A stretch of 64,000 nucleotides of DNA, taken from the NCBI RefSeq assembly GCF_903645315.1, contig NZ_CAHJXL010000001.1:1912001-1976000 (forward strand), read 5' to 3'. Source of the DNA: Victivallis sp. Marseille-Q1083. GTDB lineage: Bacteria; Verrucomicrobiota; Lentisphaeria; Victivallales; Victivallaceae. Of this stretch, positions 46,584-57,996 are shown one piece after another. The notes beneath the pieces were generated by a model. The model made no database searches, was not told the origin of the DNA, and saw only the letters and a program-made list of their open reading frames with translations. How positions within the stretch are numbered: position 1 is the first letter of the stretch; each line of letters starts with the position of its first letter. The translations under genes were made by a program, and so were the position numbers.

Positions 46584-47738
46584 TCAGCCGGAAAACGTTT
46601 CCTGCCGGTTTTCGGTGACGACGATCTTGAAGTCACGATTGGCCAGGGTCAACTGTTCCAGCAGCGTCGATTTGCCGAGCAGGCGGTCGAGCCACGAGAG
46701 TTTCCGGGCGGAAGGGCCGATCACGATATGGCCGACCCGGTGTTCACGCGCAAATTGCAGGATGGTTTCGACGATGTTGTCGCTTTTGAAGGTGAAAACC
46801 GTCGCTCCCACCTGACGCGCCAGTTCCAGGGTATTGGCTAACCGGCGCTGGGTTTCGGCGTTGATCCGGATGGCGCTCTCCTTTGATGTCTGTACGTACA
46901 GCGCGTACCAGTTGCGGTTCAGCCGTCCGGCCAGCCGCGAACCGTAACGCAGCAGCGCGTCGGCGTTCGGACTGTGCGAAGAGAGGCAGATCAGCACCTG
47001 ATCGGGATTGGCGCTGTCTTCCCGTTCGACGCTGCCGGTTTTCTCGCGGAATTTCAAATCAAGCTGGGCGGCAAGCTCCCGCAGCGTCAGTTCCCGAAGC
47101 TGCTGGAGATTGCTGTCCTGAAAGAAATTCGCGAGAGCCGCATCGATCCGGTCTGCCGCATAGACGCGGCCGGAACGGATGCGTTCCCGCAGATCAGCCG
47201 TCGAAACATCTACATTGACCACTTCGTCGGCGCGGGTTACTACCCAGTCGGGAATCCGCTCCTTGACTTTGACGCCGGTGTTTTTCTCGACGATCTCATA
47301 GAGGCTTTCGAGATGCTGTACGTTCAGGGTTGAAATCACATGGATTCCGGCGTCCAGCAGCTCCTCCACATCCTGATAGCGCTTGAGATGTTTCGAGCCG
47401 GGCACATTGGTGTGCGCCAGTTCGTCGACCAGCACCACCTGCGGCCGGCGCGCCAGAATTGCCGGGACGTCCATCTCGGTGATCTCGATCTTGCGGTAGA
47501 GAATCTTCCGGCGCGGCACCGCTTCCAGATCGCCCCGGCAGGCGGCGGTTTCGGACCGCCCGTGGGTTTCCAGAATGCCGATCACCACGTCGAGCTTTTC
47601 CACGTCCCGGAGCCGCAGCGCTTCCTTGAGCATCTGACAGGTCTTTCCCACCCCGGCGCAATAGCCGAGGTAGATTTTGTGCCGTCCGCGCCGGGCGTTG
47701 CGGATCATGGTGAGAAATTTGTCCGGAACGTTATTCAA
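46584..47738 (-). CDS. kdpD: KdpD-like protein without histidine kinase domain
   Basis: The 384-residue protein covers only the N-terminal KdpD input domain and the universal stress protein domain. Walker A is GYCAGVGKTCQML, the Walker B segment is VVLVDELAHTNVPGS, and the USP part has LICLSSHSPNADALL and NWYALYVQT, similar to the c-di-AMP-binding part of KdpD. E. coli KdpD (about 890 residues) continues with membrane helices, GAF and kinase; all are missing and a proper stop follows ENRQETFSG. It is the last gene of the kdp operon and overlaps kdpC by four bases. It may act as a K+ or nucleotide sensor for the separate kinase at 52077. Confidence 0.9.
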   Translation of the reverse strand: MNNVPDKFLTMIRNARRGRHKIYLGYCAGVGKTCQMLKEALRLRDVEKLDVVIGILETHGRSETAACRGDLEAVPRRKILYRKIEITEMDVPAILARRPQVVLVDELAHTNVPGSKHLKRYQDVEELLDAGIHVISTLNVQHLESLYEIVEKNTGVKVKERIPDWVVTRADEVVNVDVSTADLRERIRSGRVYAADRIDAALANFFQDSNLQQLRELTLRELAAQLDLKFREKTGSVEREDSANPDQVLICLSSHSPNADALLRYGSRLAGRLNRNWYALYVQTSKESAIRINAETQRRLANTLELARQVGATVFTFKSDNIVETILQFAREHRVGHIVIGPSARKLSWLDRLLGKSTLLEQLTLANRDFKIVVTENRQETFSG

Positions 47739-48292
47739 TTCAGTTGATCCAGTTTGAGGTTGAGTTCAAGCACGTTGACGAACGGTTCCGACCGGATGAA
47801 ACCGCCCGGATAAGATACACTTTCGCGCACGATTTTGCCAACCGCTTCTTCCGGAACCGAACGGGCTTCGGCAATGCGCGGAATCTGGCAGCGGGCGGCG
47901 GCAAGCGAGATGTGCGGGTCGAGGCCGCTTCCCGATGCGGTGACCAGGTCGGCCGGCAACGGATTCGCGGCCGTCGCTCCGTATTCGGCGATCAGTTTTT
48001 CGGCTCGTTCGCGCAGTGCCGGCGAAGTCGAGGCCAGATTGCTGCCGCCGGCTCCGGCACCGTTGTAATCCACCGCCGACGGACGGTTGTGGAAGTAACG
48101 GTCCGCGGTGAACTTCTGGGCGATCCGTGAGCTGCCGATCACCTCTCCGGCGGAATTGCGAATCAGCCGGCCGTTGGCGCTTTCCGGTACGAAGAGCTGA
48201 GCGGCGCCCCAGATGAACAGCGTATAGACCACACAGCAGACGAAGATTGAAAACAGTGCGAGCCGCAAGGCCCCGAAGATTGAAGAAATCAT
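47735..48292 (-). CDS. kdpC: Potassium-transporting ATPase subunit C
   Basis: The 185-residue protein has one N-terminal membrane helix (about 10-32) and a periplasmic domain with the family motifs GSSRIAQKFTADRYFHNRPSA, GSNLASTSPAL and TASGSGLDPHISLAAARCQIPRIA (given in part here). KdpC stabilises the KdpFABC complex and acts as a chaperone-like subunit for ATP binding. The gene begins 12 bases after kdpB and overlaps kdpD by four bases (both minus strand). Length is close to E. coli KdpC (190). Confidence 0.97.
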   Translation of the reverse strand: MISSIFGALRLALFSIFVCCVVYTLFIWGAAQLFVPESANGRLIRNSAGEVIGSSRIAQKFTADRYFHNRPSAVDYNGAGAGGSNLASTSPALRERAEKLIAEYGATAANPLPADLVTASGSGLDPHISLAAARCQIPRIAEARSVPEEAVGKIVRESVSYPGGFIRSEPFVNVLELNLKLDQLN

Positions 48293-48304: not shown

Positions 48305-50338
48305 TTAAGCCAGACCGGCGGCAGTCAGCGCCAGGTCGATGAGTTTGATGCCGATGAAGGGGGCGATCACGCCGCCCAGTCCGTAGATGAAGATATTGCG
48401 CGCCAGCAGCGCGTCCGCTCCGAGCGGACGGTATTTCACTCCTTTGAGCGCGATCGGAATCAGCAGCGGAATGATGATCGCGTTGAAGATCAGCGCCGAA
48501 AGAATCGCGCTCGCCGGGGTGGCGAGTTTCATCACGTTCAGCACCGCCAGTTCCGGAATCGCCAGCAGGAAGATTGCCGGGATGATCGCGAAATATTTCG
48601 CCAGATCGTTGGCGATCGAAAAAGTGGTGAGCGCGCCGCGGGTCATCAGCAGTTGTTTGCCGATCTCGATGACTTCGATCAGTTTGGTCGGATCGCTGTC
48701 GAGATCGACCATGTTGCCCGCTTCCTTCGCCGCCTGGGTGCCGGAGTTCATCGCGATGCCGATGTCGGCCTGGGCCAGTGCCGGAGCGTCATTGGTGCCG
48801 TCGCCCATCATGGCGACCAGGCGCCCCTGCGCCTGTTCCTTGCGGATATAGGCAAGCTTGTCCTCCGGTTTCGCTTCGGCGATGAAGTCGTCGACACCCG
48901 CCTCCGCCGCGATGGCCTGGGCGGTCAGCGGATTGTCGCCGGTGACCATCACCACCCGCAGGCCCATGGCGCGCAGCCGGGCGAAACGGTCCCGGATGCC
49001 GGTCTTCAGCACGTCGGAGAGCGCTACCACGCCGAGGATTTCCCGGTTTTCCATCACGACGATCGGCGTGCTGCCCTTGCGAGCGACTTCCTCCACGAGT
49101 TCCCGCAAATCTGCCGGTACCGCACGGGCCTGCGCGACAATCGCATCGGAAGCGCCTTTGCGGTATTCGCGGCCGTCGTCGGTTCCGGAGAGCCGGGTTT
49201 GGGCGGAGAACTCGATCACCTTGCCGGAGTGCCGGTCGAAGGGGGCGCGGGTTCCCAGCTCTTTTTCTCCGAGCCTGACGATGGATTTCCCTTCCGGGGT
49301 GGCATCGCCGAAGCTCGCCCGCATCGCGCTTTCAATCAGCCGTTCGCGGGAAACCTTCGCTACCGGGAAAAAGTCGCTGGCAAGGCGGTTGCCGACGGTA
49401 ATCGTGCCGGTCTTATCCAGCAGCAGCGTGTCGATGTCGCCGGCGAGCTCGACTGCTTTGCCGCTTTTGGCGAGCACATTGGCGGAGAGCGCGCGGTCCA
49501 TGCCGGCGAGGCCGACCGCCGCCAGCAGGGCGCCGATGGTGGTCGGAATCAGGCAGACCAGGAGCGCGATCAGCGTCGGCAGCGGAATCGTCACCTCGAA
49601 ATAACGCGCAATCGGATACAGCGTCACCGTCACCAGCAGGAAGCCGAGCGTCAACCCGGCCAGCGTCACGGCCAGTGCCAGTTCGTTCGGCGTCTTCTGC
49701 CGGACCGCGCCTTCCACCAGCGAGATCATCCGGTCGAGGAACGATTCGCCCGCCCCGGCGGTGATCCGTACTTTGATTTCGTCGGACAGCACCCGGGTGC
49801 CGCCGGTGACGCCGGAACGGTCGCTCCCCGCTTCCCTGACGACGGCGGCGGATTCGCCGGTGATGGCGGATTCGTCGATGCTCGCGACCCCTTCGATCAC
49901 TTCGCCGTCGCCGGGAATCGCTTCTCCGGCAGCGACCAGCACCACGTCGCCGGCCTTCAACTGATCCGAGTCGATCCGGCGGATTTCGCCGGATGGCGTC
50001 ACCAGCCGGGCCGGGGTTGTCCGGCGGCTGTCCTTCAAGCTGTCGGCCTGCGCTTTGCCGCGCGCTTCGGCCAGTGCCTCGGCAAAGTTGGCGAAAAGCA
50101 CGGTGAGCCACAGAATGAAGCTCACTGCACCGGTGTAAAGGCTGGATGGCTCCAGAACCCAGACCAGCGAGGTCAGAACCGCGCCGATTTCGGTGACGAA
50201 CATCACCGGGTTGCGGGCCATTTGGGCCGGATTGAGCATTCGGAACGATTGTTTGAATGCCACACGCATCAGGGCGGGATCGAAAATCGTTGCCCGGCGG
50301 CTGTTTTTACGAGTGAGTTTGCTCATTTTCGTTACCAT
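48305..50338 (-). CDS. kdpB: Potassium-transporting ATPase ATP-binding subunit B
   Basis: KdpB is the P-type ATPase subunit that energises K+ uptake. The 677-residue product has the phosphorylation motif [12 protein letters not shown] (about D308, matching D307 of E. coli), TGES in the actuator domain, the M4 segment [10 protein letters not shown] and the hinge [15 protein letters not shown]. It overlaps the 3' end of kdpA by seven bases. An ATG at 50326 ([16 protein letters not shown]) is a possible alternative start. All catalytic motifs are intact. Confidence 0.98.
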
Positions 50339-51996
50339 CCCATGTTAGTCAGATATTCCGCGACCGGTCCCAGCACGGCGACCGGCAGGAACAGCAGCGC
50401 TCCGATGAACAGGACCGTTCCGGCCAGAACGCCGCCGAAGAGCCCGGTATCGGTTTTCAGGGTGCCGACGGTTTCCGGCACGAATTGCTTGGCGGCGAGG
50501 CTTCCGGCGAGCGCCAGCGAGAGCACGATCGGAATGAAGCGTCCGAGCAGCATCACGACGCCGGTGGCGATGTTCCATGGCGCCGTGTTGTCCCCCAGTC
50601 CTTCGAAGCCGGAACCGTTGTTGGCCGAGGCGCTGGTGAACTCATAAAGCATTTCGGTGAAACCGTGGAAACCCGGATTCAGCACGGTGTCGCGGCCCCA
50701 GGCCGGAATCACGCAGAAGAGCGCTACGCCGCCAAGGATGCACAGCGGATGCAGCAGCAGGATCGGCAGCGCGAATTTCATCTCCCGCGTTTCGACTTTC
50801 TTGCCGAGGTACTCCGGCGTGCGTCCGACCATCATGCCGGAGATGAACACCGCGACGATAATGTAACTGAACATGCCGAGAAATCCCACGCCGATGCCGC
50901 CGAAAGTCGTATTGAACCACATGCCCGCCAGCGGTACCAGGCCGGTCAGCGGATTCAGGCTCGAATGCATGCTGTTCACCGATCCGTTGCTGGTACAGGT
51001 GGTAAACGTCGCCCAGATCGGGCTTTGCGTCACGCCGAGCCGCAGTTCCTTGCCTTCGAGGTTGCCGCACTCCGCGACCGCGAGGCCGCGCAGGGCCGGC
51101 GCGGGAGATTGTTCCAGCGAAATTGCCAGACTGATTTTGACCAGCAGAAACGCCAGCATCACCAGAAAAATCACCAGCGCATGGCGTTTGTGTCTCGTGA
51201 TATGGCCGTACAGCCAGACGCAGGCCATCGGGATTACCACCAGTGAGACGCATTCGACCAGGTTGCTGTAGAAGTTCACGTTTTCCAAAGGATGCGTGGC
51301 GTTCGGGCCGAAGAAGCTGCCGCCGTTGGTGCCGAGCTGTTTGATCGAAACGAAAGCCGCCACCGGGCCGCGGGCGATCGTCTGCACTGCTCCTTCCAGC
51401 GTCCGTGCGATTGCCGCGCCTTCAAAGGTCATCGGAACGCCGCAGAAGACCAGCAGCAGCGCGGCGACCGCCGCCACCGGGAGCAGCACGCCGCAGGTCG
51501 AACGCCCGAGGTCCAGGTAAAAGTTGTTCGGTTGCCGCGAGCCGCCGAGCCAGCGCGCCAGCGCCGTCAGCGCCGCCATGCCGGTTGCCGCGCTGACGAA
51601 CTGCAGCCACATCAGTCCGAAGAGTTGCGAACCGTAACTCAGCGCGGACTCCCCGGAATAGTGCTGCAGGTTGGTGTTGGTCACGAATGACGAAACCGTG
51701 TTGAACACCAGATCCTGATTCAGCGCGCCCATCCGGTCGGGATTCAGCGGCAGAAGCTGCTGGAATGACAGCACCAGCCAGACGAAGACGAACATTACCA
51801 GGTTGAACAGCAGCAGCGCGGCGCTGTACTGTTTCCAATTCTGATCGCTTTGCGCCGCCCGGCCGATGACGCCGTGCAGCAGTTTTTCGAATTTCGTATC
51901 CGTTTCGGGACACAGAACGCGGTACATCCATTTCCCGAGCGGGATGGAGAGCGCCACCGCGATGCCGATGGTCCCGATCATCAGAATGACATTCAT
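50332..51996 (-). CDS. kdpA: Potassium-transporting ATPase potassium-binding subunit A
   Basis: This 554-residue membrane protein of the SKT superfamily has four K+ channel-like repeats. Selectivity-filter glycines are visible in [46 protein letters not shown] and [13 protein letters not shown]. Length matches E. coli KdpA (557). It carries K+ from the periplasm into the tunnel towards KdpB. The start ATG follows TTTTGAGGTGTTCCG, directly after the small kdpF gene. It is part of the kinase-kdpFABCD operon. Confidence 0.98.
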
Positions 51997-52005
51997 CGGA
52001 ACACC

Positions 52006-52086
52006 TCAAAACCTTTCCGGTTTGTAAATGACATAGCATAAATACCCGAAGCAGCCCAATGCGGCCGCCGATGCGATTAAGAGCAT
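52006..52086 (-). CDS. kdpF: Potassium-transporting ATPase small subunit F
   Basis: The 26-residue hydrophobic peptide MLLIASAAALGCFGYLCYVI ends YKPERF. It matches KdpF in length, single helix and the YxLYxLLKPExF-type end. KdpF stabilises the KdpABC complex. Its ATG lies inside the last codons of the sensor kinase gene (10-bp overlap) and is preceded by GGAGGAGATCAATC, so translation is coupled. kdpA starts 10 bases after its stop. Confidence 0.93.
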   Translation of the reverse strand: MLLIASAAALGCFGYLCYVIYKPERF

Positions 52087-53909
52087 GATTGATCTCCTCC
52101 GGTTGGCAGGGTAAAGGTGAATACGGTACCGGTATTCTCTTTGCTCCGCACGTTGATGTTGCCGCCGTGGGCGGTGATGATTTCCTTGACGATCGCCAGT
52201 CCGAGGCCGACGCCGCTGACGGCATCCTGCCCGGGGCCGCGGTAAAACGGCTCGAAAACGTGGGTTGCCACCTCTTCGGACATGCCGCACCCGGTGTCAG
52301 AAACGGCGAATTCGACGGCATTGTCCCGCGCTTTGGCCGAAAGCCGGATTTTCCCGCCCGGGGGAGTGAACCGGACCGCGTTGCCGATCAGGTTGTCAAA
52401 CGCGTAATTGATCCGGTTCAACGCCACCGGCACGGCCGGCGCCAGCGGATCGCAATCGGTTTCCAGCGTGATGGAATGCGATTGGCATTCCGCCAGGAAA
52501 CGGTCCTTCGCATTCAGCAGCAATTCATTCGGCGCATGCGGTTCGGTGACGAGTTTGCCGGGTTTGGAGGCTTTGTTGAGGTCCAGGAGGTCGCCGATGA
52601 TCTCGGTCAGCCGCTGGCTGTCGTCACGCATGGTCATGATCAGGTCGAGTTGGTCGGGATTGAGCGCGCCGCACTTTTCTTCCAGCAACAGGTAAATCGA
52701 CATCTGCAGGCTGGTCAGCGGCGTTCTGAGCTGGTGCGACACGGTGGAAATCACGCTGCGCTTGAGTTCCTGCTGTTCGTGGGCCAGCGTGACATCTTTC
52801 AGGATCACCACGACGCCGGTGAGCTGTTCGACCTGGGCGTCGGCCGGAAGCGGCACGGCCATGGGCTGAAAGAAGAATTCCTTGCCGTCGATGAAATGCT
52901 GGATGATGCCGTCGTTTTTGCCGGAAATGCTGACGACGCCGTTCTGGCGGACCTGCCGGAATATGTCCGGCAGCCATTCGAAGGAAAATTCGCCGAGCTT
53001 CCGCCCCTCTTCCAAACCGAAATATTGGCGCGCGCTCCGGGTCGCCAGCTCGATCCGTTCGCTGCGGATATCGAAAACCGCGATCGGAGTCGGCAGCTCG
53101 CTGAACACATCCTTGTTCATCTGCTCGGAACGGTGGAGTCGCCCGACCAGCTGGCTGCGGGCGTTGCGCAGCGCGATCGCCATCGCGTTGAACGAACGCG
53201 CCAGCTGGCCGATCTCGTCGTTGGATTTTGAATCCGGCGCCAGTGCGAGATTGCCGTTGGCGATCTCGTTGGTCATATCGATCAGTTTCTGCAGCGGCCG
53301 CTGAATCCAGCGCGTCAGAAGCAATGAGAAGACGATGATGAACGCGAAACAGCCGATCAGCAGCCCGATCCCGCGCCGGAACAGGTGGTCCGCTTCCGTA
53401 CGGGCGAGGTTGTTGGCTTCGGTCATATTGTTCTGGTTCACGGTCAGAATACCGCCGATTTCCTGTTTCAGTTCCTGAAAGAGCGGAAAGGCCTTTTCAC
53501 GATAGAAGCTCATCCGCTCCGTCGAAGGGCGTTCCGGTTTCCGGAGCTCCGGCAGCAGTGCGATGTATTCGGCCAGCATCCTGGCGACTTTTTCCGCCCG
53601 CGCGCCCTCGGTCGGAACGGTGATGTTGTCCAGTTCCGCTTTCCACTCCCGTTCGATCTTGTCGACCTGCTCGGAGAAAAAGCCGGGGGCGGCGGTCTGG
53701 CCTGCGAAAGAGAACAGAAGACCGCTGTCAATGCGTTCCAGCGCCTCGTTGACATTCTGACAGATGATGACACTCTGGTAATTTTCGCGAAGAATGACAT
53801 CCACGGCGCGGCCAAGCTTATCCACCTGGCGGAGCATCAAAATCCCCGGGACCGCGAACGCCAGCAGCAGGATTCCGAACGAGATTAGAAATTTCTGTTT
53901 GATATTCAT
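52077..53909 (-). CDS. Sensor histidine kinase of the kdp operon
   Basis: The 610-residue inner-membrane kinase has a first helix (8-27), a periplasmic four-helix-bundle like sensor (28-178), a second helix (180-200), HAMP (200-255), PAS (265-375), and HisKA with VISTVSHQLRTPLTSLQ (His about 392). HATPase_c follows, with the N box RINYAFDNLIGNAVRFTPPG, DTGCGMSEEV and GVGLGLAIVKEI. It is not a KdpD; it replaces the kinase half that KdpD lacks here. The gene is preceded by a sigma-54 promoter and by paired dyads. kdpF begins inside its end. The likely partner is the NtrC-type regulator upstream, now broken by an insertion sequence. Confidence 0.9.
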   Translation of the reverse strand: MNIKQKFLISFGILLLAFAVPGILMLRQVDKLGRAVDVILRENYQSVIICQNVNEALERIDSGLLFSFAGQTAAPGFFSEQVDKIEREWKAELDNITVPTEGARAEKVARMLAEYIALLPELRKPERPSTERMSFYREKAFPLFQELKQEIGGILTVNQNNMTEANNLARTEADHLFRRGIGLLIGCFAFIIVFSLLLTRWIQRPLQKLIDMTNEIANGNLALAPDSKSNDEIGQLARSFNAMAIALRNARSQLVGRLHRSEQMNKDVFSELPTPIAVFDIRSERIELATRSARQYFGLEEGRKLGEFSFEWLPDIFRQVRQNGVVSISGKNDGIIQHFIDGKEFFFQPMAVPLPADAQVEQLTGVVVILKDVTLAHEQQELKRSVISTVSHQLRTPLTSLQMSIYLLLEEKCGALNPDQLDLIMTMRDDSQRLTEIIGDLLDLNKASKPGKLVTEPHAPNELLLNAKDRFLAECQSHSITLETDCDPLAPAVPVALNRINYAFDNLIGNAVRFTPPGGKIRLSAKARDNAVEFAVSDTGCGMSEEVATHVFEPFYRGPGQDAVSGVGLGLAIVKEIITAHGGNINVRSKENTGTVFTFTLPTGGDQSCS

Positions 53910-53942: not shown

Positions 53943-53958
53943 AGCAAAATTCATGCCA
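53943..53958 (-). promoter_or_regulatory. Sigma-54 promoter of the kinase-kdpFABCD operon
   Basis: The minus strand reads TGGCATGAATTTTGCT, with TGGCA at -24 and TTGCT at -12 and exact GG-N10-GC spacing. It lies 34 bases upstream of the kinase ATG. An NtrC-type regulator encoded next door fits this promoter type. Confidence 0.85.
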
Positions 53959-54001
53959 TGTCTATTTTCCGGGGCAAGACGGACCGGAAACCGGCCGATC
54001 T

Positions 54002-54039
54002 ATTGCAAAATGCAATATTCCCGGCTTGCAACCTGCAAT
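54002..54039. promoter_or_regulatory. Paired upstream dyads for the NtrC-type regulator
   Basis: ATTGCAAAATGCAAT (54002-54016) is a perfect dyad ATTGCA-N3-TGCAAT. CTTGCAACCTGCAAT (54025-54039) is a near-perfect second copy. Their centres are 23 bp apart, about two helical turns, and lie about 50-85 bp upstream of the sigma-54 promoter, as expected for enhancer sites. The same dyad occurs at 57046-57060. Confidence 0.75.
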
Positions 54040-54465
54040 TCACAACCCGTATTGTTTGCGTTTGCGCCACAGGGTCGTTTGGTCGATGCCGAGCTTTTCC
54101 GCCGCTTCCTGAAGCGAAGCGGTCGCTTCGATCATACGGCCGATATGTTGCTTTTCCAGCTCTTCGAGGGTGCAGGCTCCGCAATTTTTCGGCGGATTCC
54201 CGGCGGTCCGGAGCGTATCCGGCAACGCGCCGGGAAGAATTTCCGGGCCGTTGGAAAGAATCACGGCGCGTTCCACCGCATTGCGCAGTTCACGCAGGTT
54301 TCCCGGCCACGCATAATTCAGCAGCGCCTCCCGCGCCGCTTCGGAAAACCCGGCGACTTTCTTGTGATTGGTCCGGGCGAAAAATGCCAGCATGCTGTCC
54401 GCCAGCGTCCCGATGTCCTCAGGTCGTTCCCGGAGCGGGGGAAGCGTCAGTTGGAAGACGTTTAG
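54040..54465 (-). pseudogene. NtrC-type response regulator, 3' fragment (interrupted by IS)
   Basis: This piece encodes the end of the AAA+ domain and the DNA-binding domain of the regulator. It opens in frame with LNVFQLTLPPLRERPEDIG, continues with NYAWPGNLRELRNAVERAV, and ends in a Fis-type helix-turn-helix (LQEAAEKLGIDQTTLWRKRK) with the stop at 54040. The gene begins at 56953, and the IS1380-type element at 54466-56046 separates the parts. Without the element and one TTAG copy the coding length is 1,329 bases, exactly 443 codons, which confirms a single ancestral gene. Any protein made from a start inside the IS would lack the receiver and most of the ATPase. Confidence 0.92.
54462..54465. 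repeat. Target site duplication TTAG, left copy
   Basis: TTAG at 54462-54465 matches TTAG at 56047-56050. Removing one copy with the IS restores the regulator reading frame. Confidence 0.9.
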
Positions 54466-56046
54466 CCTGAATGTTGCATGAAACTTTCGAATCGTCGAGA
54501 AATGTTCAGAAGATTCGGAAGTTTTTATTTTCAGAGTCGGATATTGTCGTTTTTTTGCAAATTGAGCATATTCCCCCTTTCCCCCGTTGTTGTTCGGCGA
54601 GCCGGGGACAGCTCTCCAAGGTTTTATTCCCAAGCGATGATTTTCGCAGCGATCAAGCGGAGGAGTTCCTGATTTGGACAAGCACTTGAAAGAGCAACAT
54701 AAATTTTTCTGGTATTCCGCCGAATAATGGCACCGATTTTCACCAGGTATAAGCGAATGCTGCCGCAGGTAGCCTCGGCAAATTGAGTTCCTGTCAACAA
54801 CAATGCCCGAAACCGTTCCATGAGAATATAAGCCAAACTTGAAAGCAGAAGCCGGAATTGATTTGCCGCAAAGTCATGGCAGCTCGTCCGATCAGCGAAA
54901 AGATCCAGCTGCTGTTCCTTGATCCTGTTTTCCATCTCACCTCGGGCGCAATAGACTTTTTCATAAAGATATTGTCCATCATCATCAAGATTGGTGACGA
55001 TAAAACGATTATTCGGTCCGGGGGAGTTGAATTCCGCTTTGGCAATCACCCGGCGCGGGTATTTCCAAGTTCCTGCCGCATATTCGAACTGAGTAAACAG
55101 TTTTGCTTTTTCATGTGTTTCGTTGTAAAGTGCTTCCGCTTTCACTTGAAGATCTTTTGATAATTCCAGCAAACGTGGATTTTTCGCCAATCCGACAATA
55201 TATTTGACCTCATTTTTATCACACCAGTTCAGCATTTTCTGCCGACAAAAGCCACTGTCTCCCCGGAAAATAATCTTAACCTTCGGCCATTTCTGCCGAA
55301 AGCGCTTTACCAGTAGCGAGAGAATCGCCCAAGCATGCTTGGCCGCATCAATTTTTGATGGACGCAAATAAGCCACAAGCAATTGATCCCCGCAGAAAAC
55401 ATACAACGGCAAAAAGCAATAGTGGTCATAATAGCCATGAAAAAAGCGATTTTCCTGCATCCCGTAAGTGAGGTCATCGGTAGCATCGAAATCAAGAATC
55501 AATTCTCGAGGCGGCGTGGAGAAACTTTCGATAAAGAATTCGACAAACAATCGGCTCAAATCTACGCAAGCACGACGATCGATTCCATTTTCGAATCGAC
55601 ATAAAGTGCTTGGAGTGGCGAGTTGACGATCACGACCGACAACAGTTTGAATCAGCGGATCAGTTCGCAATTCATGATGGTCATTGAGATCTTCATGGCC
55701 GGCAACCAAACCAAAAACTCGTTGACGAAGCATGCTCAGATAGGAATGCTCAACTTTTCCGGGCTGTCGAATATCAAAAGAATCCAGCAGGTTACCGGCG
55801 CGCCGGGTCAAACCGAGTTTGCGGTCGAATTCTTTCACAAAAAGCAACCCGCCGTCACTGCTGATATCTCCACCGGCGAAATTGAATTCAATTTTTCTGC
55901 TTTTCGGACCTTGAAAGACCGGAATCGAAACATTACATTTTGTCATTGGCAGACCTCGGCGTTATATTGTGATGTAAGATATTACAATATAATACGTTAG
56001 TCGAGAATCTGCCTCTTTGTTTTTGAAAATTTACGCAATATTCAGG
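54466..56046 (-). mobile_element. IS1380-family insertion sequence, 1,581 bp
   Basis: The element ends are imperfect inverted repeats: the left end begins CCTGAATGTTGCATGAAAC and the right end, read inward, begins CCTGAATATTGCGTAAATT. It is flanked by a 4-bp duplication (TTAG), the usual size for IS1380. It carries one transposase gene on the minus strand with about 158 bases of non-coding DNA on the left and 100 on the right. It sits in the regulator gene, in the same direction as that gene. The intact open frame and matching ends suggest a recent insertion. Confidence 0.93.
54624..55946 (-). CDS. IS1380 family transposase
   Basis: The 440-residue DDE transposase has the family's N-terminus with GGDISSDGGLLFVKEFDRKL, then RQRVFGLVAGHEDLNDH, LILDFDATDDLTYGMQENRF (first Asp), FRGDSGFCRQKMLNW (second Asp), and VYCARGEMENRIKEQQLDLF, which carries the late Glu. 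The length matches IS1380 transposases (about 430-470). The reading frame is complete with no internal stop, so the element may be active. Between its start and the right IS end lies an AT-rich 100-base stretch which probably contains its promoter. Confidence 0.96.
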   Translation of the reverse strand: MTKCNVSIPVFQGPKSRKIEFNFAGGDISSDGGLLFVKEFDRKLGLTRRAGNLLDSFDIRQPGKVEHSYLSMLRQRVFGLVAGHEDLNDHHELRTDPLIQTVVGRDRQLATPSTLCRFENGIDRRACVDLSRLFVEFFIESFSTPPRELILDFDATDDLTYGMQENRFFHGYYDHYCFLPLYVFCGDQLLVAYLRPSKIDAAKHAWAILSLLVKRFRQKWPKVKIIFRGDSGFCRQKMLNWCDKNEVKYIVGLAKNPRLLELSKDLQVKAEALYNETHEKAKLFTQFEYAAGTWKYPRRVIAKAEFNSPGPNNRFIVTNLDDDGQYLYEKVYCARGEMENRIKEQQLDLFADRTSCHDFAANQFRLLLSSLAYILMERFRALLLTGTQFAEATCGSIRLYLVKIGAIIRRNTRKIYVALSSACPNQELLRLIAAKIIAWE

Positions 56047-56050
56047 TTAG
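56047..56050. repeat. Target site duplication TTAG, right copy
   Basis: Second copy of the 4-bp duplication that flanks the IS1380-type element. Confidence 0.9.
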
Positions 56051-56953
56051 CCGGAAAAACAGGTCTTCGCGGAACCGTTTTTCCCGCACCGCCTCCTCCA
56101 GCTCAAGGTTGGTCGCGGCGATGATCCGTACGTCGGCCCGGCGGGTCTCCGCCGCTCCCACCGGCTCGTATTCCCGGTCTTGAAGGAAACGCAGCAGTTT
56201 GGGCTGGACCGCCGCCGGCAGGTCGCCGATTTCATCGAGGAACAGCGTCCCGTGATCGCATGCCGCAATCCGTCCCGGGTTGTCCTTGACGGCTCCGGTA
56301 AACGCCCCCCGGATATGGCCGAACAGTTCGCTGGACAGCAGTTCCGGCGACAGCGACGGGCAGGAGATTACCCCGAACGGCGCATCGGCGCGCCGGCTCC
56401 AATGGTGAATGGCTTTGGCCAGTACGGTTTTGCCGGTGCCGCTTTCGCCGCGCAAAAGAATGATGGCATCGGAATCCGCCACCTGGTGCGCCATTTCAAG
56501 CGTGCGGCGCATGGCCGGATTGGCGGAGTCGAAGATGCCGTCCGGATACAGGGATTTCAAATCGGCGGCGAGGGATGATATCCGATTTTCCATCGAACGG
56601 AGTTTTTCGGCTTTACCGAGAATCACATCGATCTGCGCCGGATTGAACGGTTTGCCGATATAATCGAACGCTCCGAGTTTCATTGCCGAGACGGCGGTGT
56701 CCACCGAAGAAAAGGCGGTCATCACGACAATTTTGAGGTCGGGATTGTCGGCGAGCAGCACCGGGATCAGGTCTAGGCCGTTTTCCGCGCCGAGCCGCAG
56801 GTCGAGAAATACCGCGTCAAAGCGTTCCTTGCGGTTCAGACGCGCCGCCTCGTTCGCGCCGGAGGCCGCCGCCGAGGTGTGTCCGTTTGTTTTCAAGTAC
56901 ATTCCAAGCGTTTTGCGGATGTTCGCTTCGTCATCGATAACCAGAATATTCAT
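56047..56953 (-). pseudogene. NtrC-type response regulator, 5' fragment (interrupted by IS)
   Basis: This part encodes the receiver and most of the AAA+ domain. The receiver begins MNILVIDDEANIRKTLG, with the phosphoacceptor at about D51 (FLDLRLG) and the Lys in YIGKPFNP. The sigma-54 ATPase has Walker A GESGTGKT, the GAFTGA loop (IRGAFTGAVKDNPGR) and Walker B GTLFLDEIGD. It runs to REDLFFRL, where the IS begins; after that the IS adds one Thr and a stop. The fragment keeps the sigma-54 contact loop but has lost the last part of the ATPase and the DNA-binding domain. The intact protein would be 442 residues, normal for the NtrC family. It has a consensus sigma-54 promoter, suggesting self-activation. 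Confidence 0.92.
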
Positions 56954-56985
56954 GGCAGTTGCTCCTTAATTCGGATCATGAAATT

Positions 56986-57001
56986 AGCAAAATCCGTGCC
57001 A
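56986..57001 (-). promoter_or_regulatory. Sigma-54 promoter of the response regulator gene
   Basis: The minus strand reads TGGCACGGATTTTGCT, matching the sigma-54 consensus (TGGCACG-N4-TTGC) with GG-N10-GC spacing, 33 bases before the regulator ATG. It is the best sigma-54 site in the window and implies autoregulation. Confidence 0.88.
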
Positions 57002-57045
57002 ATCCTTTGGGGGAGGTCGCGGCAACCGGAACCGGCGCTTGTTGC

Positions 57046-57092
57046 ATTGCATTTTGCAATACAATATAAAGCAGATCAATTCATTTTGCAAT
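57046..57092. promoter_or_regulatory. Upstream dyads for the response regulator promoter
   Basis: ATTGCATTTTGCAAT (57046-57060) is a perfect ATTGCA-N3-TGCAAT dyad, the same sequence type as upstream of the kinase. AATTCATTTTGCAAT (57078-57092) is a second copy with two mismatches, 32 bp away. They lie about 45-90 bp upstream of the sigma-54 promoter. The second reaches to the 3' end of the preceding binding-protein gene. Confidence 0.7.
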
Positions 57093-57093
57093 G

Positions 57094-57996
57094 TCATTCA
57101 AGACCGTATCGCCGGATTGCTTCTTCCGCCAGGCGGTTGATTCCCTGTCCCGGTTCGATCCCGATGATTTTGCCGTCGAATTCAGCGCGGAATTTTCCCA
57201 GCTCCCTGATCGACCGGACCGGAATATCCTCCGGGACTGCGATGCCGAGCCGGGCGCCATGCAGATTCGGACCGATTATTTCAACCCGGTCGGCGATGGC
57301 GGCGAATTCCTGTTGATAATAACGCGGCAGCCAGACCGACAAGTGGACATCCTGCGTTCCGCCGGCGAGTGCTTCGAAACCGATCGGCAGTGTGGTCGTG
57401 GTCAGCACGACTTCGCATTTGAGCCGTTCCTCCAGCAGCACTTTGATCAGATTTCCGGCGGTCAGTTCATTCAGAAAACCGTTGTTGACGATCCGGATTT
57501 CCGCCCCCGGCTCCGGCTGTACGCCGTCGAGGAAGCGTCCGATCAATTCGGGATGTTCGGCGATCCATTCCCGGGCATTGGCTTCGTACTCGCCTTTGCG
57601 CACGGTGCTCTTCCAGGTCAGCGACTCCAGGTCGGCCGGTTCCCAGCGGAATTGACGCAGGAATTTCATCACCTGCGGGTGGTCTTCGCCAAATCCCCGA
57701 CGCACCACCGTGCAGATATCTTCCTCCTGTCCGAAGACGTTCAATGGATCGTCGAGGTAGCGTATTTTGAGTTTGCTGTTCATCCAGTGCGGCCGCCAGG
57801 CGGTTGCCGCCAGGTATTTCCGGTTTTTTATGGCATATTCCATCTCCTGGATCATGGCCGGAGTCGTGGAAGCGACCACCCGGAATCCTTTGGCCGCGGG
57901 AACGTTCCGGCCGTTCCGGAGGTTAAAATACAGCAGCGTGCCGAAACAGAGGATGACGAGAATCAAATCTGTTTTGTGACGTTTCAGAATGTTCAT
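57094..57996 (-). CDS. Membrane-anchored glycine betaine-type binding protein with swapped lobes (OpuAC family)
   Basis: The 300-residue protein has an N-terminal membrane anchor (about residues 9-25). The next 115 residues match the second lobe of OpuAC proteins: ASTTPAMIQEMEYAIKNRKY, LAATAWRPHWMNSKLKIRYL and DDPLNVFG. After a short linker, the last 130 residues match the first lobe: GNLIKVLLEERLKCEVVL, DVHLSVWLPRYYQQEF, GARLGIAVPEDI and the GIEPGQGINRLAEEAI end, stopping at RRYGLE. That is exactly where the second lobe begins in the usual order, so this is a circular permutation. Trp residues in TAWRPHW and VWLPRYY could form the quaternary amine cage. No permease or ATPase gene is adjacent. 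The place before the kdp regulator points to osmotic adaptation. Confidence 0.82.
   Translation of the reverse strand: MNILKRHKTDLILVILCFGTLLYFNLRNGRNVPAAKGFRVVASTTPAMIQEMEYAIKNRKYLAATAWRPHWMNSKLKIRYLDDPLNVFGQEEDICTVVRRGFGEDHPQVMKFLRQFRWEPADLESLTWKSTVRKGEYEANAREWIAEHPELIGRFLDGVQPEPGAEIRIVNNGFLNELTAGNLIKVLLEERLKCEVVLTTTTLPIGFEALAGGTQDVHLSVWLPRYYQQEFAAIADRVEIIGPNLHGARLGIAVPEDIPVRSIRELGKFRAEFDGKIIGIEPGQGINRLAEEAIRRYGLE

Follow-up and report, generated by a model that had tools for sequence, protein, structure and literature searches.

We analysed a 64,000-nucleotide stretch of the genome of the gut-type bacterium Victivallis sp. Marseille-Q1083 (the window; contig NZ_CAHJXL010000001.1, positions 1,912,001 to 1,976,000), in which the genes of a KdpFABC potassium pump lie beside those of a two-component system and two promoters of the sigma-54 type. 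All genes and promoters described at this locus are on the minus strand. In minus-strand order, the locus contains a gene for an OpuAC-type betaine/choline substrate-binding protein (57094..57996, assigned by domain matches), the 5' part of an NtrC-type response-regulator gene (56047..56953; receiver and most of the AAA+ domain with GAFTGA), an IS1380-family element (54466..56046), the 3' part of the regulator gene (54040..54465; AAA+ lid and Fis-type helix-turn-helix [HTH]), a sensor histidine kinase gene (52077..53909; HAMP, HisKA and HATPase), a kdpF-like open reading frame of 26 codons recognised by position and sequence (52006..52086), kdpA (50332..51996), kdpB (48305..50338), kdpC (47735..48292) and a gene designated KdpDN (46584..47738). 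The KdpDN product has the KdpD N-terminal domain and a Usp match falling just below the Pfam cut-off, and carries no kinase domain. The OmpR-type KdpE and full-length KdpD kinase of a KdpD/KdpE system were thus both lacking at this locus. The receiver, the AAA+ domain with GAFTGA and the Fis-type HTH of an NtrC-type regulator were all found, spread over two open reading frames, and the source genome carries rpoN.

A sigma-54 type -24/-12 element, TGGCATGAATTTTGCT (53943..53958), precedes the kinase-kdp operon. Upstream of it lies a predicted enhancer dyad, ATTGCATTTTGCAAT (54002..54016), centred 52 bp upstream of the -24 G, and another 23 bp upstream is a second dyad (54025..54039) whose core, TTGCAGGTTGCAA, is a full match to TTGCA-N3-TGCAA. 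The response-regulator gene is preceded by the -24/-12 element TGGCACGGATTTTGCT (56986..57001), the predicted enhancer dyad ATTGCAAAATGCAAT (57046..57060) and, 32 bp upstream of the latter, a weaker second dyad, TTGCAAAATGAAT (8/10; 57079..57091). Both promoters fit GG-N10-GC with TGGCAY-N5-YTGCW. These observations confirmed a preliminary description of this DNA, which had noted two GG-N10-GC promoters, each with an ATTGCA-N3-TGCAAT dyad and a second copy upstream. The exact dyad ATTGCANNNTGCAAT occurs three times in the 4.82-Mb genome, twice at this locus; when up to one mismatch was allowed, 22 sites were found, compared with 3 for a reversed-pattern control. A joint pattern, defined as TTGCANNNTGCAA followed after 30-90 nt by TGGCAYNNNNNYTGCT, gave exactly two matches in the genome, both at this locus, and none in the control. 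The third exact dyad (C1:1820632) was rejected as a regulon member: it is part of a AAAGATTGCAATATGCAATCTTT palindrome without a sigma-54 element and sits downstream of a gene that we take to be of the ROK-like type.

The joint pattern was then sought in 148 related genomes, where it gave 13 matches in 8 genomes, with none for the reversed-pattern control. Eleven of these matches were in genomes with this two-component system, at the kinase gene (7), the regulator gene (2; source genome and G024), a proV-like gene (1) and an alanine dehydrogenase (AlaDH)-like gene (1), the last two both in G033. In the same 148 genomes, at least 8 kinase orthologues were found in 7 genomes (E <= 1e-60; scoring covered at most 8 candidates in each genome, so that copy numbers are lower bounds), including two G033 copies at L017 and L175. 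Upstream of all eight, a 10/10 dyad and a GG-N10-GC site were present, and the sigma-54 score was 7/7 in seven and 6/7 in G023. The conservation of dyad and promoter spacing in relatives, which the preliminary description had proposed as a check, therefore held at 8/8 kinase orthologues, and its assignment of the locus to sigma-54/NtrC-type control was supported by these kinase promoters together with the receiver, the GAFTGA-bearing AAA+ domain, the Fis-type HTH and rpoN. Among the relatives, G047 carries a decaying copy (L197, 1-3000), in which the kinase gene has an in-frame TAG and OpuAC remnants are present; the dyads and promoter are kept, the regulator is uninterrupted from receiver to HTH, and that genome gave no KdpA match. 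At L023 (G129:C106), KdpABC-KdpDN are 75-88% identical to the window though from a different family of the order, and are closer to the window than those of same-family genomes; the contig ends inside kdpA.

The same architecture was found before genes for betaine uptake, a link that the preliminary description had overlooked. A proV family search of 8 genomes returned a match above the curated cut-off in three (source genome, G024 and G033), and dyads with a sigma-54 element precede proV in all three. The source proV (C1:1408771-1409832) is some 0.56 Mb away from the window locus and has a permease gene behind it; upstream are the dyads TTGCAGAATGCAA and TTGCAGAATGCAG, whose centres precede the -24 G by 83 and 53 bp, and the sigma-54 element TGGCATGTCAAATGCT, which stricter pattern searches miss because one base in the -12 part differs. 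Of the 10 TTGCANNNTGCAA sites in the source genome, the remaining 6 lack a sigma-54 element within 160 nt. In G024, proV-proW-opuAC-kdpFABC form one cluster, in which proV and kdpF are each preceded by a sigma-54 site, and a regulator-kinase-KdpDN module is on a separate contig, with a dyad and a sigma-54 site before both the regulator and the kinase. G033 has proV, proW, opuAC, regulator, kinase, kdpFABC and KdpDN side by side, along with a second copy of regulator-kinase-KdpDN. Because proVW has the same architecture in three genomes, the regulon probably covers both potassium and betaine uptake. The opuAC gene of the window showed no such promoter of its own on inspection by eye, and none in the joint-pattern scan; its product is likely the binding protein of the distant proVW transporter. 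G033 also has an alanine-dehydrogenase/PNT-like gene with tandem dyads and a sigma-54 promoter (L176, 9884-11095; G033:C31), which scores far under the alaDH equivalog cut-off and may form a third arm of the regulon.

In E. coli, separate regulators control Kdp potassium uptake and betaine uptake. In the lineage studied here, a single activator appears to govern the two, acting via matched pairs of enhancers at sigma-54 promoters, and a shared osmotic signal would be directly testable in Victivallis vadensis (presumed to be G024), whose regulator gene is uninterrupted. The shared regulon looks new: a literature search that covered few subscription papers brought up no article describing sigma-54 control shared by kdp and betaine uptake, and searches on Victivallis sigma-54/potassium, on rpoN with betaine and kdp, and on KdpD in Bacteroides gave nothing useful.

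To describe the wider spread, we designated the gene order regulator-kinase-kdpFABC-KdpDN as type A. A KdpA scan of named genomes gave at least 80 loci, the taxonomic spread being a lower bound. Type A or a variant of it was found in Lentisphaeria and in two more genomes from the phylum (L081 and L064), and, among the loci listed, also in metagenome-assembled genomes labelled as Thermoguttaceae (one), Desulfurivibrio (one), Chlorobiaceae (two) and Planctomycetales (two), and a divergently arranged variant in two Gemmataceae. The promoter and dyads are kept at 12 of the 18 type-A kinase genes, mostly as tandem dyads 30-32 bp apart. A sigma-54 score of at least 6/7 was reached in 11/18 type-A kinase upstream regions versus 1.3% of shuffles, with 0/40 classical kdp loci and 1/26 Firmicutes kdp loci as controls; L064, L081, L100, L110, L112, L137 and L157 score 3-5 at the kinase. 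In a tree of 16 type-A regulators, 17 Bacteroidota/Ignavibacteria regulators and 5 other activators as outgroup, the type-A regulators formed one side of a branch (100/99) and the Bacteroidota/Ignavibacteria regulators a separate clade (99/99).

Several of these loci have features of their own. L064, L110 and L112 (Verrucomicrobiota and Planctomycetales) have an extra receiver-domain gene after the kinase, and their promoters are weak or altered. L095, on the Thermoguttaceae-labelled contig, has the full-length regulator (71% identity) and KdpA (76%) closest to the window among the loci listed, and is either a recent transfer or a mis-binned contig; fragments in G023 and G129 are closer still. 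The preliminary description had also proposed autoregulation, and the promoter and dyads before the source regulator gene agree with it. In its direct form, however, such a promoter is present at just 2 of the 16 type-A regulator genes with upstream sequence, and general autoregulation was rejected. The G033 regulator begins 16 nt behind opuAC in an apparent proV-proW-opuAC-regulator operon, where the proV promoter could provide autoregulation indirectly.

The geometry of the dyads was analysed at 19 promoters (12 kinase, 2 regulator, 3 proV, 1 kdpF and 1 AlaDH-like), the AlaDH-like one having entered the set via the pattern itself. The best dyad scored at least 8/10 in 19/19 promoters, compared with a shuffle mean of 0.9/19. 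A second dyad was present at 22, 23, 30, 31, 32 or 34 bp in 18/19, mostly at 30-32 bp; when the best dyad was fixed and the rest shuffled in 500 trials, the mean at the observed spacings was 0.76 and the maximum 4. With any spacing from 14 to 60 bp permitted, the 18/19 compared with a shuffle mean of 4.4 and a maximum of 12. For 37 dyads, the distances to the promoter clustered with a periodicity near 10.5 bp (vector length 0.61; nominal p ~8e-7). This test omits three third-best dyads of score 7; with all 40 listed dyads the vector length was 0.57 (p ~2.5e-6), and with the best dyads only it was 0.59 (n=19, p ~0.001). The fixed tandem enhancer geometry also looks new.

The regulator gene of the source genome is split by the IS1380-family element, which is 1581 bp long, has imperfect inverted ends starting CCTGAAT, encodes a transposase (54624-55946) and is flanked by TTAG target duplications at 54462-54465 and 56047-56050. 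It separates the receiver, Walker motifs and GAFTGA from the lid and HTH. The element had 49 matches genome-wide, with at least 31 copies at >=97% identity over >=1,580 bases, this copy included (the search scored part of the first-look candidates, so that the copy number is a lower bound), a recent burst of this family in a 4.82-Mb genome. Because of these near-identical copies, the insertion in the regulator gene is probably recent. A search of the source genome revealed no second regulator copy: among its other activators, the top match shares 41% identity across receiver and AAA+, and the E <= 1e-60 search gave one kinase. Since the element parts the ATPase core from the lid and DNA-binding domain, the switch is predicted to be inactive in the assembled genome. 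In the source strain, kdp and proVW would then be either non-inducible or reliant on read-through from the element or on sigma-70-like starts. The locus may represent a regulon with promoters that still look intact after a very recent interruption of its master regulator. The earlier proposal that potassium uptake is switched here by a different logic stands for the sigma-54 logic of the lineage, whereas switching by this regulator is doubtful in the source genome because IS1380 interrupts it.

From the gene content, promoters and dyads described above, we infer the signal, phosphorelay, binding and activation as follows. The membrane kinase would sense potassium limitation or an osmotic signal, perhaps with the detached KdpD N-terminal/Usp protein, and would phosphorylate the NtrC-type regulator. 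The regulator would then bind a tandem pair of TTGCA-N3-TGCAA dyads, with centres some 50-105 bp above the -24 box, and drive sigma-54 RNA polymerase. In the source genome it would target its own gene, the kinase-kdpFABC-kdpDN operon and proVW. For the lineage, the sigma-54 reading is very likely correct. Judging from sequence, we consider it probable that the two-component system activates the sigma-54 promoters of the regulator, kinase-kdp and proVW genes and that it is inactive in this assembly through the IS1380 split. We lean slightly towards a broader proposal, in which one sigma-54 system joins high-affinity uptake of potassium and uptake of the salt protectant betaine in a single osmoadaptation regulon, moves between phyla (Lentisphaeria, Chlorobiota, Desulfobacterota and perhaps Planctomycetota) as a module of fixed geometry, and has very recently lost its master regulator in one lineage to an exploding IS1380 family.

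Several observations weigh against activation of these promoters by the two-component system. The regulator is interrupted in the studied genome itself, where a single continuous open gene was not found (IS1380 at 54466-56046). Sigma-70-like matches (9/12) overlap both promoter regions, so that a sigma-70 start is possible; 7 such matches were listed in a 3.25-kb stretch, compared with 2.6 (standard deviation 1.7) in shuffles. At 6 of the 18 type-A loci (L064, L100, L110, L112, L137 and L157) the kinase promoter is weak or absent, and these six were left out of the geometry set for their poorly scoring kinase upstream regions. The permitted dyad spacings were picked after inspection of the data, and the 19 promoters share descent, which the p-values ignore. 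Two of the 13 joint matches (G090 and G100) were at other genes. In G090 (L184, 1500-1640), the dyad and sigma-54 pattern is flanked on one side by the end of a Fis-type regulator gene and on the other by a gene presumably for a dinitrogenase-cofactor protein, and the locus has an AAA+ match; there, a nearly identical dyad appears to be used by a different activator, so that the dyad is not unique to this regulator. In G100, the same dyad and sigma-54 pattern was seen at another locus (L185).

The G090 dyad bears on the alternative that a different enhancer-binding protein serves these promoters, which would make the split of the regulator irrelevant. A dyad of the same form adjoining another Fis-type regulator speaks for it, as do six further AAA+ activator matches in the source genome. 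The best of these is the 41% match, however, and dyad, regulator and kinase co-occur across genomes, which makes such a substitute improbable. We regard it as still less probable that the dyads are RNA hairpins, acting as terminators or attenuators, rather than enhancer sites. They can fold as RNA, and similar dyads at Bacteroidota kdp loci precede T-runs and are terminator-like in several loci, but the stems in the window are A+T-rich without T-runs and gave folding z-scores of -2.0 and -0.8; moreover, the dyads are found in front of five different genes, where they are arranged in tandem and at helically phased distances from the -24 box.

Two further alternatives concern the insertion. Transposase transcription might read through the regulator 3' part into kinase-kdpFABC, so that the element has rewired the operon to constitutive low-level expression. 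The transposase shares its strand with kdp, and no minus-strand terminator-like site was listed from the transposase stop (54624) to the end of the element (54466). However, minus-strand terminator-like sites were seen inside the transposase gene (55798-55784) and downstream of it at 54406-54386 and 54280-54262, the five sites in the stretch equalling a shuffle mean of 5.0, and no minus-strand sigma-70-like site was listed at the start of the transposase gene; we consider this rewiring unlikely, although the least unlikely of the four alternatives. The split might also be an artefact of the assembly or of a mixed population, the living strain having an intact regulator. At least 31 near-identical copies make mis-joins or mixed populations conceivable, and the gene is uninterrupted from receiver to HTH in 15/15 relatives checked, but the precise 4-bp TTAG duplication on both sides of the element and an assembly of 5 contigs with 99.72% completeness leave little room for an artefact.

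Compared with known systems, the locus shares the KdpFABC pump and the KdpD N-terminal domain with E. coli KdpD/KdpE and with classical loci of the same phylum. It differs from them in its NtrC-type regulator, separate kinase, KdpDN without a kinase domain, and sigma-54 element, whereas KdpE is OmpR-type and uses sigma-70. The Bacteroidota/Ignavibacteria loci of the order response regulator-kdpFABC-kdpDN-histidine kinase likewise have an NtrC-type GAFTGA regulator beside kdpFABC, but this regulator belongs to the separate clade and has another recognition helix, and the kinase follows kdpDN. The preliminary description had suggested a search for the same dyad and promoter at Bacteroidota kdp loci; the promoter was absent in nearly all of them, and the dyad lookalikes were often terminator-like. 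A sigma-54 score of at least 6 was found in 2/27 whole regulator-kdpA intervals (1.7% of shuffles), and TGGCAY-N5-YTGC in 0/27 loci within the last 700 nt before kdpA. In that 700-nt region TTGGCAY was enriched (16/27 loci; antisense 2, shuffle mean 1.4); at these 16 loci (within L113-L170) the -24-like box before kdp is without GC at -12, which may reflect a sigma-54 promoter type whose -12 box is relaxed. TTNCA-N3-TGNAA occurred in 18/27 regulator-kdpA intervals, against a shuffle mean of 0.87 and 1/41 classical controls. These dyads were rejected as the same enhancer: in several of them the repeat lengthens to CCCTTTCA...TGAAAGGG and T-runs come after it, and folding of two gave z-scores of -2.9 and -2.8. 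Because of the extended stems, T-runs and good folding, they are better read as post-regulator terminators.

Published work places sigma-54 and kdp together in a few ways. The available part of a 2011 comparative study links E. coli kdp to sigma-54 merely indirectly, via the nitrogen phosphotransferase system, PTS-Ntr (PMC3162934), and the main text of a 2025 sigma-54 regulon survey contains neither kdp nor potassium by term search (PMC12316311). A close likeness is to DVU3334-DVU3339 of Desulfovibrio vulgaris. As described in the available parts of two reports (PMC3333781, PMC4641369), DVU3334 is an NtrC-type regulator with GAFTGA that regulates its own kdpFABC operon and is entered in the sigma-54 regulome as controlling the kdp genes, and the kinase is split from a KdpD-N/UspA protein. 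By description, therefore, both systems have an NtrC-type regulator linked to kdpFABC, a separate kinase and a KdpD-N/Usp protein. They differ in that those parts name no betaine transporter among the targets of DVU3334 and that two other regulators also target its kdp operon. NtrC-type control of kdpFABC is thus not unprecedented, this kind of system being known from DVU3334.

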